NCBI RefSeq assembly: GCF_003336425.1
Contig: NZ_QEIO01000003.1
Span: forward strand, 1 to 64,000
Source of the DNA: Marinitenerispora sediminis
Lineage (GTDB): Bacteria > Actinomycetota > Actinomycetes > Streptosporangiales > Streptosporangiaceae
Length of the DNA stretch: 64,000 nucleotides
Direction of reading: 5' to 3'
Part shown: one piece after another, positions 75 through 4,301 of the stretch
Layout of the letters: every line of letters begins with the position of its first letter
Numbering within the stretch: the stretch's first letter is position 1
Translations under genes and position numbers: made by a program
The notes under the pieces: generated by a model
The model's input: the letters and a program-made list of their open reading frames with translations, nothing else
Databases searched by the model: none
Told to the model about the DNA's origin: nothing

Positions 75-178
75 CCCAGCGCGCGGGCCCGGCGAGAACC
101 GGCGACCAGAAACGGTCAACCGCCCCGGAGCCCCGCCCACGCGGGAATCCCACGGATCGAACAGAAAGGACATCCACC

Positions 179-301
179 ATGCAGCCGAGCCTCGATGACC
201 TGTTCACCGACCCCGAGACCCTGACCGTCCCGGACGACGCCGAGGAGTACACGAAGAAGAACGGCTCCTCCGACATCCCGACCAAGTACGACGAGATGTA
301 G
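179..301 (+). CDS. Small peptide, candidate RiPP precursor (40 aa)
   Basis: A 40-residue ORF starts at ATG 179 behind an AAAGGA ribosome binding site and stops at TAG 299-301. The N-terminal half is acidic (LDDLFTDPETLTVPDDAEE), as in many RiPP leaders. The C-terminal part reads YTKKNGSSDIPTKYDEM and offers Lys, Asp and Glu side chains for macrolactam formation. It lies 66 bases before an asparagine-synthetase-like gene, the enzyme class that forms isopeptide bonds in lasso-type peptides. The usual lasso leader motif (Tyr-x2-Pro-x-Leu) and a Thr two residues before an obvious core Gly are not clear, so lasso identity is not established. It could also be an unrelated small protein. Confidence 0.6.
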   Translation: MQPSLDDLFTDPETLTVPDDAEEYTKKNGSSDIPTKYDEM

Positions 302-367
302 CCACCCCTGCCGCTTCACCTGTGGGGCGGGCGTGTGAGCGTCCGCCCCGCCCCTCTCGGAGGTGCC

Positions 368-1963
368 GTGTTCCGCCTGCGTTCCACCCCGACTGACGAC
401 CCGCCCCACCTGCGCTGGGAGCCCACCGGCCGCTACCGGAGCGGCGCCTCCTGGATCGAGCCGTTCACCCACCCCGTCCTCGAACACGGCGCCATCGTCC
501 GCCGCTCCGACCAGCAGGCGGTCATCGTCAATCGGGAACGCCAGCGCGCCGTCCGCACCTGGTGCCACACCCCAGGACCGCACGTGGTGGATGACGCCGT
601 CTACGAGCAGCGGCTGGCCGAGGTGCGGTCCTGGCCCCTCGCCCACACCCTCGTCCACGTGGATCGCGGCGGCCTGCGTGTGGAGGCGAGCCGGTGGGGT
701 GCCGCCCCGATGCACCTGGCTGAGGTCGACGGTGAACTGCGCGGATCGTGGGACCTACTCGACCTCGCGCCGCTCATCGACACCTGCCGGCTGAACGAGC
801 TGGAAGTGGTGCGGTTCCTCACCTACGCCACGCACTACTCGGCCCAGACCCTGCTCGCCGACGTCATCACGGTGACCGAACGCGCCACCGCCGCCCACGA
901 CGCCCGTGGCCTGCGCATCACCTACCCCGCGCCGGGCCTGCACGCCCAGCCCCGCACGCTCAAGCCCGGCGCCGATCCGGTGGGCTTCTTCGAGCACGCG
1001 CTGGCCGAGGTGGTGCAGCGGTGGGACGTCGACCCTGATGCGGCGGTCGCCGACGTCTCCGGCGGTATGGACTCGGCGAACGTCGCCGTCACGCTCGCCC
1101 AGCTGCACCCCGGCCGCGTGGCCACCGGCGCGATGATGCTTGTCGGCCCCTACCGCGAGCAGCAGGCCCGCCGGCGCCGGGAACTCCTCGCCGACGGGTT
1201 CGCCGAGGATCACCGGTTGGAGATGATCGCGCAGCTGCCGTTCGCGCCGGGCGGGCCGCGCGACCGCGGCGAGCCGTTCGACCCGCAGGAGGGCCCCTAC
1301 GCCGAGGCCCGGAATCTGCTGCTGGACCGCTACGCCGCGGCCGGCAAGCGCGTGGTGTTCACTGGGCTGGGCGGCGACGAGATGATGAAGCTGCGCCGCG
1401 CCGAGGCCGCCGCCCTCGGCCTGGCCGCGCAGGCGCCGCCGCTGCGCGCCACCGAGGACGGGGTGCCGGTCTTCCTTGGGGAGCGGGGACGCGCTCTGCT
1501 GCCGCGCCGCTTCGACGGCCTGGCGCCGATCGGCCCTACCCTGTGGTCGATCCTGGACTGCTTCTCCGCGCTGTACCCGCACTACATGAAGCGCGGACTG
1601 TGGCCGATCAACCCGCTCGCGGCGCCGTCCATCGTGCGGCTGGCGGAGTCGCTGGCCGCGCCGTGGCGCGCCAAGAAGCACCTGCTGCGGGAACGGCTAC
1701 GCCACCGCGGATTCTCCACCGACGTCGTCCACCCGGAGCTGCCGGAGAACTTCCAGCACATCCTCGACCTGGCGATGCGCCGCCACGGCGCCGCACTCCT
1801 GGAACACCTGGTGGATGAGGGGGCGCGGCTGGTCGCCGACGGCTACCTGGACGAGACCGAACTGCGCCGCGCGGCCCGGACGTTCGCCGTGACGGGGCGG
1901 CGGACGTTCGACGTCTACCGGCCCCTCATGCTGGAGATGGCGTTGCGGTCCCTCACCCGCTGA
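368..1963 (+). CDS. Asparagine-synthetase-like amide-forming enzyme, candidate RiPP cyclase
   Basis: A protein of about 531 residues with a C-terminal asparagine synthetase fold. The PP-loop ATP-binding motif SGGMDS is near residue 231 and the conserved GLGGDE motif near residue 332. The enzyme should adenylate a carboxylate and join it to an amine. The N-terminal domain has no Cys at position 2, so glutaminase activity is unlikely; lasso peptide cyclases share this trait. GTG 368 is preferred over the in-frame GTG at 335 because GGAGG (359-363) sits correctly before it. The precursor-like gene just upstream suggests macrolactam formation on that peptide. No leader peptidase or transporter is visible in the window; these could lie to the left. 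Its 3' end overlaps the convergent acetyltransferase gene by 11 bases. Confidence 0.75.
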   Translation: MFRLRSTPTDDPPHLRWEPTGRYRSGASWIEPFTHPVLEHGAIVRRSDQQAVIVNRERQRAVRTWCHTPGPHVVDDAVYEQRLAEVRSWPLAHTLVHVDRGGLRVEASRWGAAPMHLAEVDGELRGSWDLLDLAPLIDTCRLNELEVVRFLTYATHYSAQTLLADVITVTERATAAHDARGLRITYPAPGLHAQPRTLKPGADPVGFFEHALAEVVQRWDVDPDAAVADVSGGMDSANVAVTLAQLHPGRVATGAMMLVGPYREQQARRRRELLADGFAEDHRLEMIAQLPFAPGGPRDRGEPFDPQEGPYAEARNLLLDRYAAAGKRVVFTGLGGDEMMKLRRAEAAALGLAAQAPPLRATEDGVPVFLGERGRALLPRRFDGLAPIGPTLWSILDCFSALYPHYMKRGLWPINPLAAPSIVRLAESLAAPWRAKKHLLRERLRHRGFSTDVVHPELPENFQHILDLAMRRHGAALLEHLVDEGARLVADGYLDETELRRAARTFAVTGRRTFDVYRPLMLEMALRSLTR

Positions 1964-2477
1964 CCGGCGCCACAACGGGCAGACCGGGCTGATACTGGGC
2001 GGGCCGGGTCATGATGTAGCCGGTCCGGCCGCGCCGCTCCACCTCACGCAGCAGCGTCCAGCCCTGCACCTCGCAGTAGTAGCGGGCCAGCCCCGCCTCG
2101 AACGCCCCCCGCCGCACCGCCGTCGCGCCGGTGCGCGCGGCGTGGTCCAACGCCCATCGCGCGATCACGTGCCCCAGCCGCCGGCCGTCGGTGGGAAGCG
2201 TCCAGGTCGAGGCGAGGAACAGCGCGGGCTGCGCCCGCTCGTGCTCGGTGAACGCCCACGCCGGGCTGTCCTCGAACACCGTCGTGCACCCCACGACGGT
2301 GCTGTCCTCCTCCAGCACCCACACCGGGAAGTCCGGATCACCCGCCTGCTCGGCGATGGTCTCCGCAGCGCCGTCGAAGACCCGCATCCCACGGCTACGC
2401 ATCCACCCAGCGCGGGCCTCCACCATCGCCGCGACACCGTCACGGTCACCGGCATCAGCCGGCCGCATCCGAAACAT
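1953..2477 (-). CDS. GNAT family N-acetyltransferase
   Basis: A 174-residue protein with the GNAT layout: an N-terminal strand beginning FRMRPADAGD, the central strand VWVLEEDSTVVGCTTVF, and the acetyl-CoA pyrophosphate loop RRLGHVIA at about residues 99-106. It should transfer an acetyl group from acetyl-CoA to an amine. It is convergent with and overlaps the asparagine-synthetase-like gene. Acetyltransferases occur in albusnodin-type lasso peptide loci, so peptide acetylation is possible, but the opposite orientation means it may be unrelated. The substrate is unknown. Confidence 0.7.
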   Translation of the reverse strand: MFRMRPADAGDRDGVAAMVEARAGWMRSRGMRVFDGAAETIAEQAGDPDFPVWVLEEDSTVVGCTTVFEDSPAWAFTEHERAQPALFLASTWTLPTDGRRLGHVIARWALDHAARTGATAVRRGAFEAGLARYYCEVQGWTLLREVERRGRTGYIMTRPAQYQPGLPVVAPVSG

Positions 2478-2674: not shown

Positions 2675-2812
2675 TCATCTGAGCGGTTTCCGACAATTTC
2701 CTGCAGCTGCTAACACAGATTGGCCACGGTCGGTCGTTCAGGGGTAACACCGACCACCCAGGAGAAGACCAGAAGAGACGGGAATTCTGGAGTAGCTACG
2801 GAGGTTGCCACA

Positions 2813-3331
2813 ATGGCGTCCAAGTCACCAGCGAAGACGACCAAGCGGATACTGACCACAGCGGCAGCACTCACCACGGTACTCGTGGTCACCCCAGGGA
2901 GCGCGCATGCCTCAGCAGCGCAGGACCCCGCTGGCGCTGGGTTTCGGCTACCCGGGTGTGCCGTGACCTATCTGCCGAATGCGGACAGTACCGCAGGAGC
3001 GGAGTGCCTACAGGCCGAATCTGCCCATGCCCGCGCAGCTTCAGCTGCCGGAGTGACGATCACCCTCTATGAGAACGGGCCATACGGATCGGATGCCATG
3101 CGCAGGGGTGAGGCCTGGAACCTGACGTATTCCGGGTGGTACAAGCTGCCTTTCTTCATGGACAATGAAGCGAGCGCATGGCGCTCTTACTGCACAGAAG
3201 GTCACTTCTTCGACGTCGATCCCTATTCGGGCGGGACCGCTCATTTCCCTGCCCGGTCCTCGGGCAACTTCCCCCGTGGCGGCGTCGGAAACGACCGGCT
3301 CTCGGGGGTCGCGCCCTTCCGGAGCTGCTGA
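2813..3331 (+). CDS. Secreted protein with beta-gamma-crystallin / I36-inhibitor-like pattern
   Basis: A 172-residue protein with a Sec signal peptide: basic N-terminus (KTTKR), a hydrophobic stretch and a likely cleavage after SAHA near residue 33. ATG 2813 is chosen because GGAGG stands 8 bases before it; an upstream in-frame start lacks this. The mature part has repeated blocks in which an aromatic/Gly strand is followed by an Asn/Ser/Trp turn (ITLYENGPYGS, DNEASAWRSYC, GNDRLSGVAPF). This resembles secreted crystallin-fold peptidase inhibitors of actinomycetes. Four Cys remain after the signal. It sits alone between the two LGMPI gene ends, with a strong terminator behind it. The fold is inferred from pattern only. 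Confidence 0.6.
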   Translation: MASKSPAKTTKRILTTAAALTTVLVVTPGSAHASAAQDPAGAGFRLPGCAVTYLPNADSTAGAECLQAESAHARAASAAGVTITLYENGPYGSDAMRRGEAWNLTYSGWYKLPFFMDNEASAWRSYCTEGHFFDVDPYSGGTAHFPARSSGNFPRGGVGNDRLSGVAPFRSC

Positions 3332-3477: not shown

Positions 3478-3900
3478 TCAGATCGGCATGCCCAGAGTGA
3501 GCCGGGCCGGGGCGGGCGGGGTGGGCGGTTCGGGCCCGGGGTCGATCCACGGGCCGTCGCTGACGGCGACGTGGGAGACGTACAGCGGCGGCCACCGTCG
3601 GCCGAGTTCGTAGTCCATGGCGGCGCGGGTCTCGGGGCCGGGGATGCCGTCCGCCGGTGACAGGCCGCGCGACGTCTGGAACGCGACGACCGCGTTGTAG
3701 GTGGCGTTGCCGAAATCCCCGTCCGCGCCCGCAGGACCCAGCGAGTACCCGAGGTCCAGCAGTTCCAGTTGGAGCGCTCGCACCTCGGCGCCCTGGTCGC
3801 CCCAGTACAGGGTCGGCCGGCGCCGGTACCGGTACCCGGTGAGTTCCACCGTGGCCCCGCCGAGTGCCGCGTTCGACCAGGTGAGGACGCGCGGATCCAC
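3478..3900 (-). CDS. Truncated peptidoglycan-binding domain protein
   Basis: About 140 residues are readable from GTG 3900. The centre is a PG_binding_1 repeat: LYWGDQGAEVRALQLELLD, then DGDFGNATYNAVVAFQ, then DGIPGPETRAAM. Such domains target secreted hydrolases or lysins to the cell wall. The C-terminus is proline-rich and ends LTLGMPI. Upstream of about 3890 the frame continues only as the antisense of an integrase fragment, so the natural N-terminus, probably with a signal peptide or catalytic domain, was lost at that junction. It has no visible promoter and is best read as a broken gene. Confidence 0.55.
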   Translation of the reverse strand: MDPRVLTWSNAALGGATVELTGYRYRRRPTLYWGDQGAEVRALQLELLDLGYSLGPAGADGDFGNATYNAVVAFQTSRGLSPADGIPGPETRAAMDYELGRRWPPLYVSHVAVSDGPWIDPGPEPPTPPAPARLTLGMPI

Positions 3901-4095
3901 GACCTGTGCCACACCGCGGCGACGATCCTGTACGAGGAGGGATCCGACCTGAAGGACATCCAGCCCGCGCTCCGGCACACCCGGTTGCAGACCACGGTGG
4001 AGGTGTACACCCACTTCACGAAGAAGACCCAGCTCCGCACGGCGAACGTGATGGACGGCGCGCTGTCGCGGATGAACCTGGTGGCGTCGAAGTAG
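3886..4095 (+). pseudogene. C-terminal fragment of a tyrosine integrase
   Basis: The last about 69 residues of a phage-type integrase are open to TAG 4093-4095. Catalytic landmarks are visible: HDLCHTAAT (normally HDLRHTAAT; the second Arg is Cys here), LRHTRLQTT (normally LGHxxxxTT) and VEVYTHFT with the Tyr nucleophile. The N-terminal DNA-binding part and first catalytic Arg are missing; the sequence to the left belongs to another gene. It lies 133 bases from the 3' end of tRNA-Arg, the usual place for the integrase of a tRNA-integrated element. It should be inactive. Confidence 0.85.
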
Positions 4096-4187
4096 GCCCC
4101 TCACAGGGACGTTCGGTCCCTCCCGGATCGCCTCGAACTCTCTCGGTTGCTACACCCGTCGCTACACCTGAGAGGGTAAATGACGAA

Positions 4188-4214
4188 GGCGCCTACCTCG
4201 CTGAGGTAAACGCC
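4188..4214. terminator. Imperfect hairpin after the integrase stub
   Basis: GGCGCCTACCTC and GAGGTAAACGCC flank a 3-base loop, with two mismatches. It lies between the integrase stop and tRNA-Arg and could end transcription from either side. Confidence 0.4.
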
Positions 4215-4228
4215 GTGGTCAGAGTGTG

Positions 4229-4301
<73 letters not shown>

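Follow-up and report, generated by a model that had tools for sequence, protein, structure and literature searches.

We found, near the start of a 64,000-nucleotide stretch of Marinitenerispora sediminis DNA (the window), a gene for a 40-residue peptide next to genes for an asparagine-synthetase-like enzyme and a GNAT acetyltransferase. Judging from sequence conservation, the peptide-enzyme family is very likely a family of RiPPs. We lean towards the reading that the cassette is not a lasso system but works in a similar way, the enzyme closing a macrolactam between Lys26 and Asp32 of the peptide and the GNAT tailoring the product; the Lys-Asp ring itself is likely. The peptide family is widespread and apparently undescribed, as our literature search, which covered mainly openly accessible papers, returned no description of it. 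More tentatively, and with a confidence that falls a little short of even, we propose that it represents a new RiPP class. In this class an asparagine-synthetase-like enzyme acting alone, without RRE or leader peptidase, would join the side chains of an invariant Lys and an invariant Asp six residues apart. The class would extend from actinomycetes to rhizobial symbiosis plasmids, with tailoring by GNAT, methyltransferase or phosphotransferase depending on the lineage.

Table 1. Features of the cassette, with positions in the window.
Feature	Position	Strand	Basis
AAAGGA ribosome-binding site of the peptide gene	165..170	+	sequence; inferred from its distance to ATG 179
Precursor peptide gene, 40 aa	179..301	+	ORF; related enzymes preceded by related peptides
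LF motif of the leader (Leu8-Phe9), conserved; candidate for recognition by the enzyme	200..205	+	alignment
Putative core K26-M40, KKNGSSDIPTKYDEM	254..298	+	conservation; exact boundary inferred
Invariant Lys26, proposed amine donor	254..256	+	K-x5-D in 14/14 lineage representatives
Invariant Asp32, proposed carboxylate activated as acyl-adenylate	272..274	+	K-x5-D in 14/14 lineage representatives
Intergenic hairpin of 13 bp; probably an attenuator or a site of RNA processing	322..351	+	hairpin analysis
GGAGG ribosome-binding site of the enzyme gene	359..363	+	sequence
Asparagine-synthetase-like enzyme, 531 aa, no glutaminase Cys	368..1963	+	ORF, profile scores, relatives' starts, fold model
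PP-loop SGGMDS, residues 231-236, ATP-pyrophosphatase signature	1058..1075	+	alignment
GLGGDE, residues 333-338, second active-site motif	1364..1381	+	alignment
GNAT acetyltransferase, convergent, overlapping the last 11 bases of the enzyme gene	1953..2477	-	ORF, predicted fold, neighbourhood survey

The 40-codon gene and the GNAT gene overlapping the end of the enzyme gene were present as the original prediction had described them (Table 1); the former has an AAAGGA ribosome-binding site, and the overlap is 11 bases. The translation of the small gene is MQPSLDDLFTDPETLTVPDDAEEYTKKNGSSDIPTKYDEM. The peptide is covered by no Pfam or NCBIfam model, and several database records annotate it as a CDS. 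Its nonsynonymous to synonymous ratio (dN/dS) was only moderately below 1, a noisy estimate that tells little. The Phe of the LF motif was invariant in 22 aligned actinobacterial peptides, and the LF pair was near-universal in actinomycetes. The actinomycete core followed a consensus of roughly Y-x-K-x-x-G-[SDG]-[SAG]-D-x4-[YK]-D and was strongly conserved within groups, for example as GSSDGAKTYDT or KMPGGGDNNGDHCS, while the C-terminal residue varied (M, I, V, R, T, K or D). An encoded precursor, conserved leader and core motifs and an adjoining class enzyme together give, at the level of sequence, what is generally expected of a RiPP. In one locus (L068, 5634-5902, oriented) two consecutive precursor peptides preceded a single enzyme.

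We scanned all residue pairs and spacings in 14 lineage representatives. Lys and Asp at a spacing of six ranked first, in 14/14, a count that is not wholly blind because the actinobacterial peptides had been located partly with motifs containing K and D. Over all lineages this was the sole feature that persisted, and in the window it corresponds to K26 and D32. In 2000 shuffled sets no combination of residue pair and spacing scored above 10, and K-D at spacing six never scored above 8 (mean 2.8). The blind evidence comes mainly from annotated plasmid genes of rhizobia, Xanthomonas and Streptomyces, all of which carry K-x5-D. The proteobacterial ones among them, which were picked out solely by where they lie, read KGGKPGD in Rhizobium, KPYLGDD in Xanthomonas and KRRLPGD in Mesorhizobium; a Streptomyces peptide reads KMPGGGD. 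Both residues were still invariant in Rhizobium and in three loci that lack the GNAT (L082, L084, L086). Its invariance where the GNAT is absent links the Lys to the enzyme and not to acetylation. The expectation of a new RiPP that is a variant rather than a lasso peptide holds, by conservation and by the tree described below, but the residues proposed for its cross-link change: the C-terminal Lys that had been suggested, K36, is Thr in many relatives, and it is K26 and D32 that never vary.

The enzyme more likely starts at GTG 368 than at GTG 335, because its relatives begin at the equivalent codon and a GGAGG sits at 359-363. Residue 2 is then Phe (MFRL...), and no member start that we examined has Cys at this position, so that the nucleophile of an Ntn glutaminase is missing. 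With its PP-loop intact, the protein is the asparagine-synthetase-like partner without glutaminase Cys that had been foreseen. Enzymes of the Asn_synthase superfamily activate a carboxylate as an acyl-adenylate, and the window enzyme has the marks of this superfamily, namely a PP-loop of the form SGGxDS (TGG for SGG in some family members), a GxGGDE motif and a predicted asparagine-synthetase fold. It scored 19.5 against PF00733 (Asn_synthase, cut-off 21), 28.2 bits against NF033561 (albusnodin/ikarugamycin macrolactam cyclase, cut-off 300 bits) and 11.6 bits against TIGR01536 (asparagine synthase B, cut-off 267). As the PF00733 and NF033561 scores fall under their cut-offs, no curated model claims it. 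NF033561 was weakly matched by 24/34 members (best E 1.3e-12), and we rejected assignment to the albusnodin family, to which the similarity is only weak. The fold model, built from 34 members, was confident (pLDDT 92.9). Its top PDB match was beta-lactam synthetase (1mc1, E 8.3e-15), followed among the closest solved folds by a hydroxyamidotransferase, carbapenam synthetase (1q15) and AsnB.

We then placed the enzymes in a tree of 34 actinobacterial and 6 proteobacterial family rows together with lasso cyclases and asparagine-synthetase types, mostly of the same genomes. The family formed one side of a long branch (SH-aLRT 100), and the lasso cyclases (99) and AsnB types (98) grouped separately. 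The enzymes are one clade apart from both, so that a grouping with ordinary asparagine synthetases, which would have spoken against the original prediction, was not found. An ordinary asparagine synthetase was also rejected on the missing Cys and the model scores. One loop position of the active site holds Lys in almost every lasso cyclase and AsnB type sampled, but Arg, Pro, Ser or Thr in the family's actinobacterial enzymes (Pro in the window). The Lys is retained in the members from Mesorhizobium, Bradyrhizobium and Xanthomonas, and an invariant Glu and Phe come after this position. Because the loop Lys is replaced, catalysis in the actinobacterial members must differ in detail, a point against the proposed ring closure.

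Searching genome contigs with the enzyme returned five relatives of about 60-70% identity, four from Actinomadura and one from Nocardiopsis, each with an upstream peptide ending in [ED]YTK..G.SD.P.KYDE. Enzyme relatives were present in 29/299 genomes of the same family, 12/395 of the class and 2/397 across the phylum. They also occurred in 33/296 genomes of what is probably the genus Streptomyces, which belongs to another family, and most loci there had the peptide upstream. Among 40 non-redundant loci whose flanks were examined, 37 had the peptide upstream of the enzyme, which bears out the prediction that it is conserved beside homologous enzymes; of the remaining three, one had a masked upstream region and two were broken or truncated. 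The GNAT adjoined the enzyme, in either orientation, in 37/40. Since the same order recurs in dozens of genomes, the arrangement of peptide, enzyme and GNAT is more than chance. Beyond these three genes, we found none at a fixed recurrent place in the loci; XRE/TPR or XRE/DUF5753 regulators and one methyltransferase group occurred at varying positions and are not part of the cassette. In a Streptomyces-type subgroup (L127-L144, L086, L158) the core DKMPGGGDNNGDHCS is nearly identical in many species, which is very strong for a RiPP, and a methyltransferase followed the enzyme in both loci with flanks read (L086, L158).

Relatives were present on rhizobial, Streptomyces and Xanthomonas plasmids. 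By tblastn, plasmid members of 26-32% identity were found in Rhizobium, Bradyrhizobium, Mesorhizobium, Aminobacter and Xanthomonas. The proteobacterial loci had small genes just upstream, ending in ...IKGGKPGDMDKLDV in Rhizobium and ...EMKPYLGDDSRWYSTQPGG in Xanthomonas and containing ...LPKRRLPGDSATL... in Mesorhizobium; in Bradyrhizobium the upstream ORF was unannotated (...PKGPFPSDSANEGYL). In Rhizobium johnstonii 3841 the pair lies beside nifHDK on pRL10, where the enzyme annotation is shorter than in others. On Rhizobium sym plasmids (L152, 3783-6512; L154; L162-L164) a gene of the autoinducer-synthase family stood directly before peptide and enzyme, near rhiA or nifHDK. The acyltransferase that it encodes may act in tailoring or, alternatively, in quorum sensing. 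In a Mesorhizobium locus (L156, 4768-7911) an APH-type phosphotransferase and a different GNAT came after the enzyme.

The window begins at the first base of its contig (C113). Just to the right of the GNAT it encodes a protein (2720-3331) that contains Cys, begins like a signal peptide and matches nothing in Pfam. Further on, the C-terminal part of a broken tyrosine recombinase gene (PF00589, E 2.9e-9) adjoins a tRNA-Arg gene (4228-4301, minus strand), the two spanning 3769-4301. The fragment is probably what is left of an element that had inserted at this tRNA gene, and the cassette may therefore have arrived on that element. A phage origin was rejected: one family member, searched against a phage collection, had no match.

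Most relatives likewise had a strong hairpin in the gap separating the two genes, with a sequence unrelated to that of the others; Bradyrhizobium (z about -7), Rhizobium and Xanthomonas are among them. It was missing from a few loci in which the gap is short. Such a placement would be compatible with a precursor made in excess of the enzyme. The GNAT model showed an ordinary GNAT fold (pLDDT 95.5), nearest to 2oh1 and SbzI. By analogy with albusnodin, a lasso system that has a GNAT and whose peptide is acetylated (PMC9266682), it could possibly acetylate the peptide; self-protection is the other candidate role. Of the loci without the GNAT, two had an ABC transporter gene on the downstream side; a third had a methyltransferase gene and represents a type often seen in the Streptomyces-like genus. 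A class enzyme with variable tailoring genes is the usual RiPP pattern.

To our knowledge, macrolactam formation in RiPPs by relatives of asparagine synthetase is essentially confined to the lasso system (A, B1, B2 and C), where the cyclase is ordinarily accompanied by a leader peptidase and an RRE. The present family resembles it in having a short, leader-bearing precursor beside an asparagine-synthetase-like enzyme without glutaminase Cys, although that enzyme belongs to a separate clade, and in an Asp carboxylate as the presumed electrophile. The main alternative to our reading is therefore a true lasso-type peptide in which K26 would be position 1, the N-terminal amine would form a seven-residue ring with Asp7, an unlinked or housekeeping protease would cut the leader and the tail would be threaded. 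The core length of 13-16 residues and the homology of the enzyme to lasso C proteins fit this alternative. So do two points cited in PMC13352647: seven residues, the size of K1-x5-D7, is the smallest known lasso ring (xanthomonins), and, by the title of a paper listed there, one lasso peptide can be produced in vivo with neither a leader nor its peptidase. We nevertheless consider it unlikely. B2 (PF13471) was never adjacent to the loci and, in genome-wide searches, was absent from 8/29 carrier genomes; B1, the PqqD-like RRE (PF05402), was likewise never adjacent and had no match in 7/23. Three carriers (G176, G202, G449) had no match to either anywhere in the genome. On these searches and the relatives with full flanks we also rejected an ordinary lasso cluster whose B genes lie beyond the contig end. 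We know of no fixed Lys at position 1 of lasso peptides, whereas here Lys is invariant at D-6, and the enzymes lie outside the lasso clade and, in the window, far under the NF033561 cut-off. The family leaders have neither the YxxP motif nor the Thr(-2) that mark lasso leaders (PMC10368454). A separate, ordinary lasso cluster with cyclase, PqqD and transglutaminase-like B2 is present elsewhere in the window's genome (contig C396; L004, L096).

Other known systems resemble the family in part. Beta-lactam synthetase is an ATP-dependent lactam-forming enzyme, and it and carbapenam synthetase provide the closest solved folds and form an amide intramolecularly with ATP and without Gln. Their substrate, however, is a free amino acid and not a peptide, identity is 14-19%, and most enzymes of the present family have another residue in place of the loop Lys. 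Graspetides (microviridins) contain Lys-to-acid side-chain macrolactams, the product type proposed here, but these are made by ATP-grasp ligases, and our neighbourhood survey found no recurrent ATP-grasp ligase gene at the family loci. TsrC, ScdTA and PesC are asparagine-synthetase-like enzymes that do work on ribosomal peptides (PMC13060819). They are the precedent for a second alternative, that the enzyme amidates a carboxylate on the peptide or conjugates it with ammonia or a small amine, the Lys being conserved for binding only: TsrC and ScdTA amidate and PesC forms a nitrile, and Asp side-chain amidation is the reaction of the superfamily. We regard this as distinctly improbable. The characterised enzymes act on the C-terminal carboxylate, and PesC takes its nitrogen from Gln or ammonia. 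The present family lacks the glutaminase Cys, so that ammonia cannot come from Gln, its C-terminal residues are not conserved, unlike what a C-terminal modification would imply, and its Lys is as invariant as its Asp. C-terminal amidation or PEARL-type extension was rejected on the variable C-terminus.

It is very improbable that the peptide is a carrier or scaffold for building a small molecule, as is known from PEARL pathways and amino-group carrier proteins, with the GNAT-enzyme pair modifying the cargo. The unusual conservation of the core within groups would suit such a role, and one of the top structural matches to the GNAT is SbzI, which acts on a carrier-bound substrate; against it, the C-terminus is variable and neither PEARL nor amino-acid-forming genes recur near the loci. 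That the small ORF is not a substrate at all but, for instance, a regulatory leader ORF, with the enzyme acting on a free metabolite, we hardly credit: the intergenic hairpin could belong to an ORF-controlled attenuator and the link between peptide and enzyme comes from sequence, not biochemistry, but the C-terminal and LF motifs are conserved as amino acids across enzymes only about 30% identical, K-x5-D is also found in Proteobacteria, the hairpin sequences are not conserved, and records annotate the peptide as CDS.

Under the preferred reading, a Lys26-Asp32 macrolactam, the enzyme would read the leader of the 40-residue precursor through the LF motif and adenylate the beta-carboxylate of Asp32 at the expense of ATP. 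An amine of Lys26 would then attack the activated Asp32, closing a seven-residue macrolactam between the two and leaving IPTKYDEM as a short acidic tail. The GNAT might subsequently acetylate the peptide, on another Lys or a new N-terminus, or protect the host, and the hairpin would permit an excess of precursor over enzyme. We infer in this scheme the substrate relationship, the bond and its chemistry, the amine, any threading, the order of the steps, the role of the GNAT, the final processing and the biological function. With no source of ammonia, a peptide amine would be the natural nucleophile, and the only one that is invariant belongs to Lys26. The Lys side chain is more likely to be the attacking amine, since the cassette encodes neither a leader peptidase nor an RRE and since the identity of the Lys, not just a position 1, is invariant; cyclisation therefore need not await removal of the leader. 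The epsilon-amine and an N-terminal amine are nonetheless indistinguishable from sequence, and a housekeeping protease could free the N-terminus.

In a PF00733 network published in 2026, some 300 enzymes associated with RiPPs stayed uncharacterised (PMC13060819). The present family may partly escape such surveys, because the window enzyme scores under the Pfam cut-off. If the enzyme is self-sufficient on its 40-residue substrate, enzyme and peptide would make up a simple macrocyclase system of two components, which could serve as a tool and shed light on the evolution of lasso cyclases. Its presence on the sym plasmids of legume symbionts, by the nif genes in R. johnstonii 3841, makes its role directly testable in a model strain.
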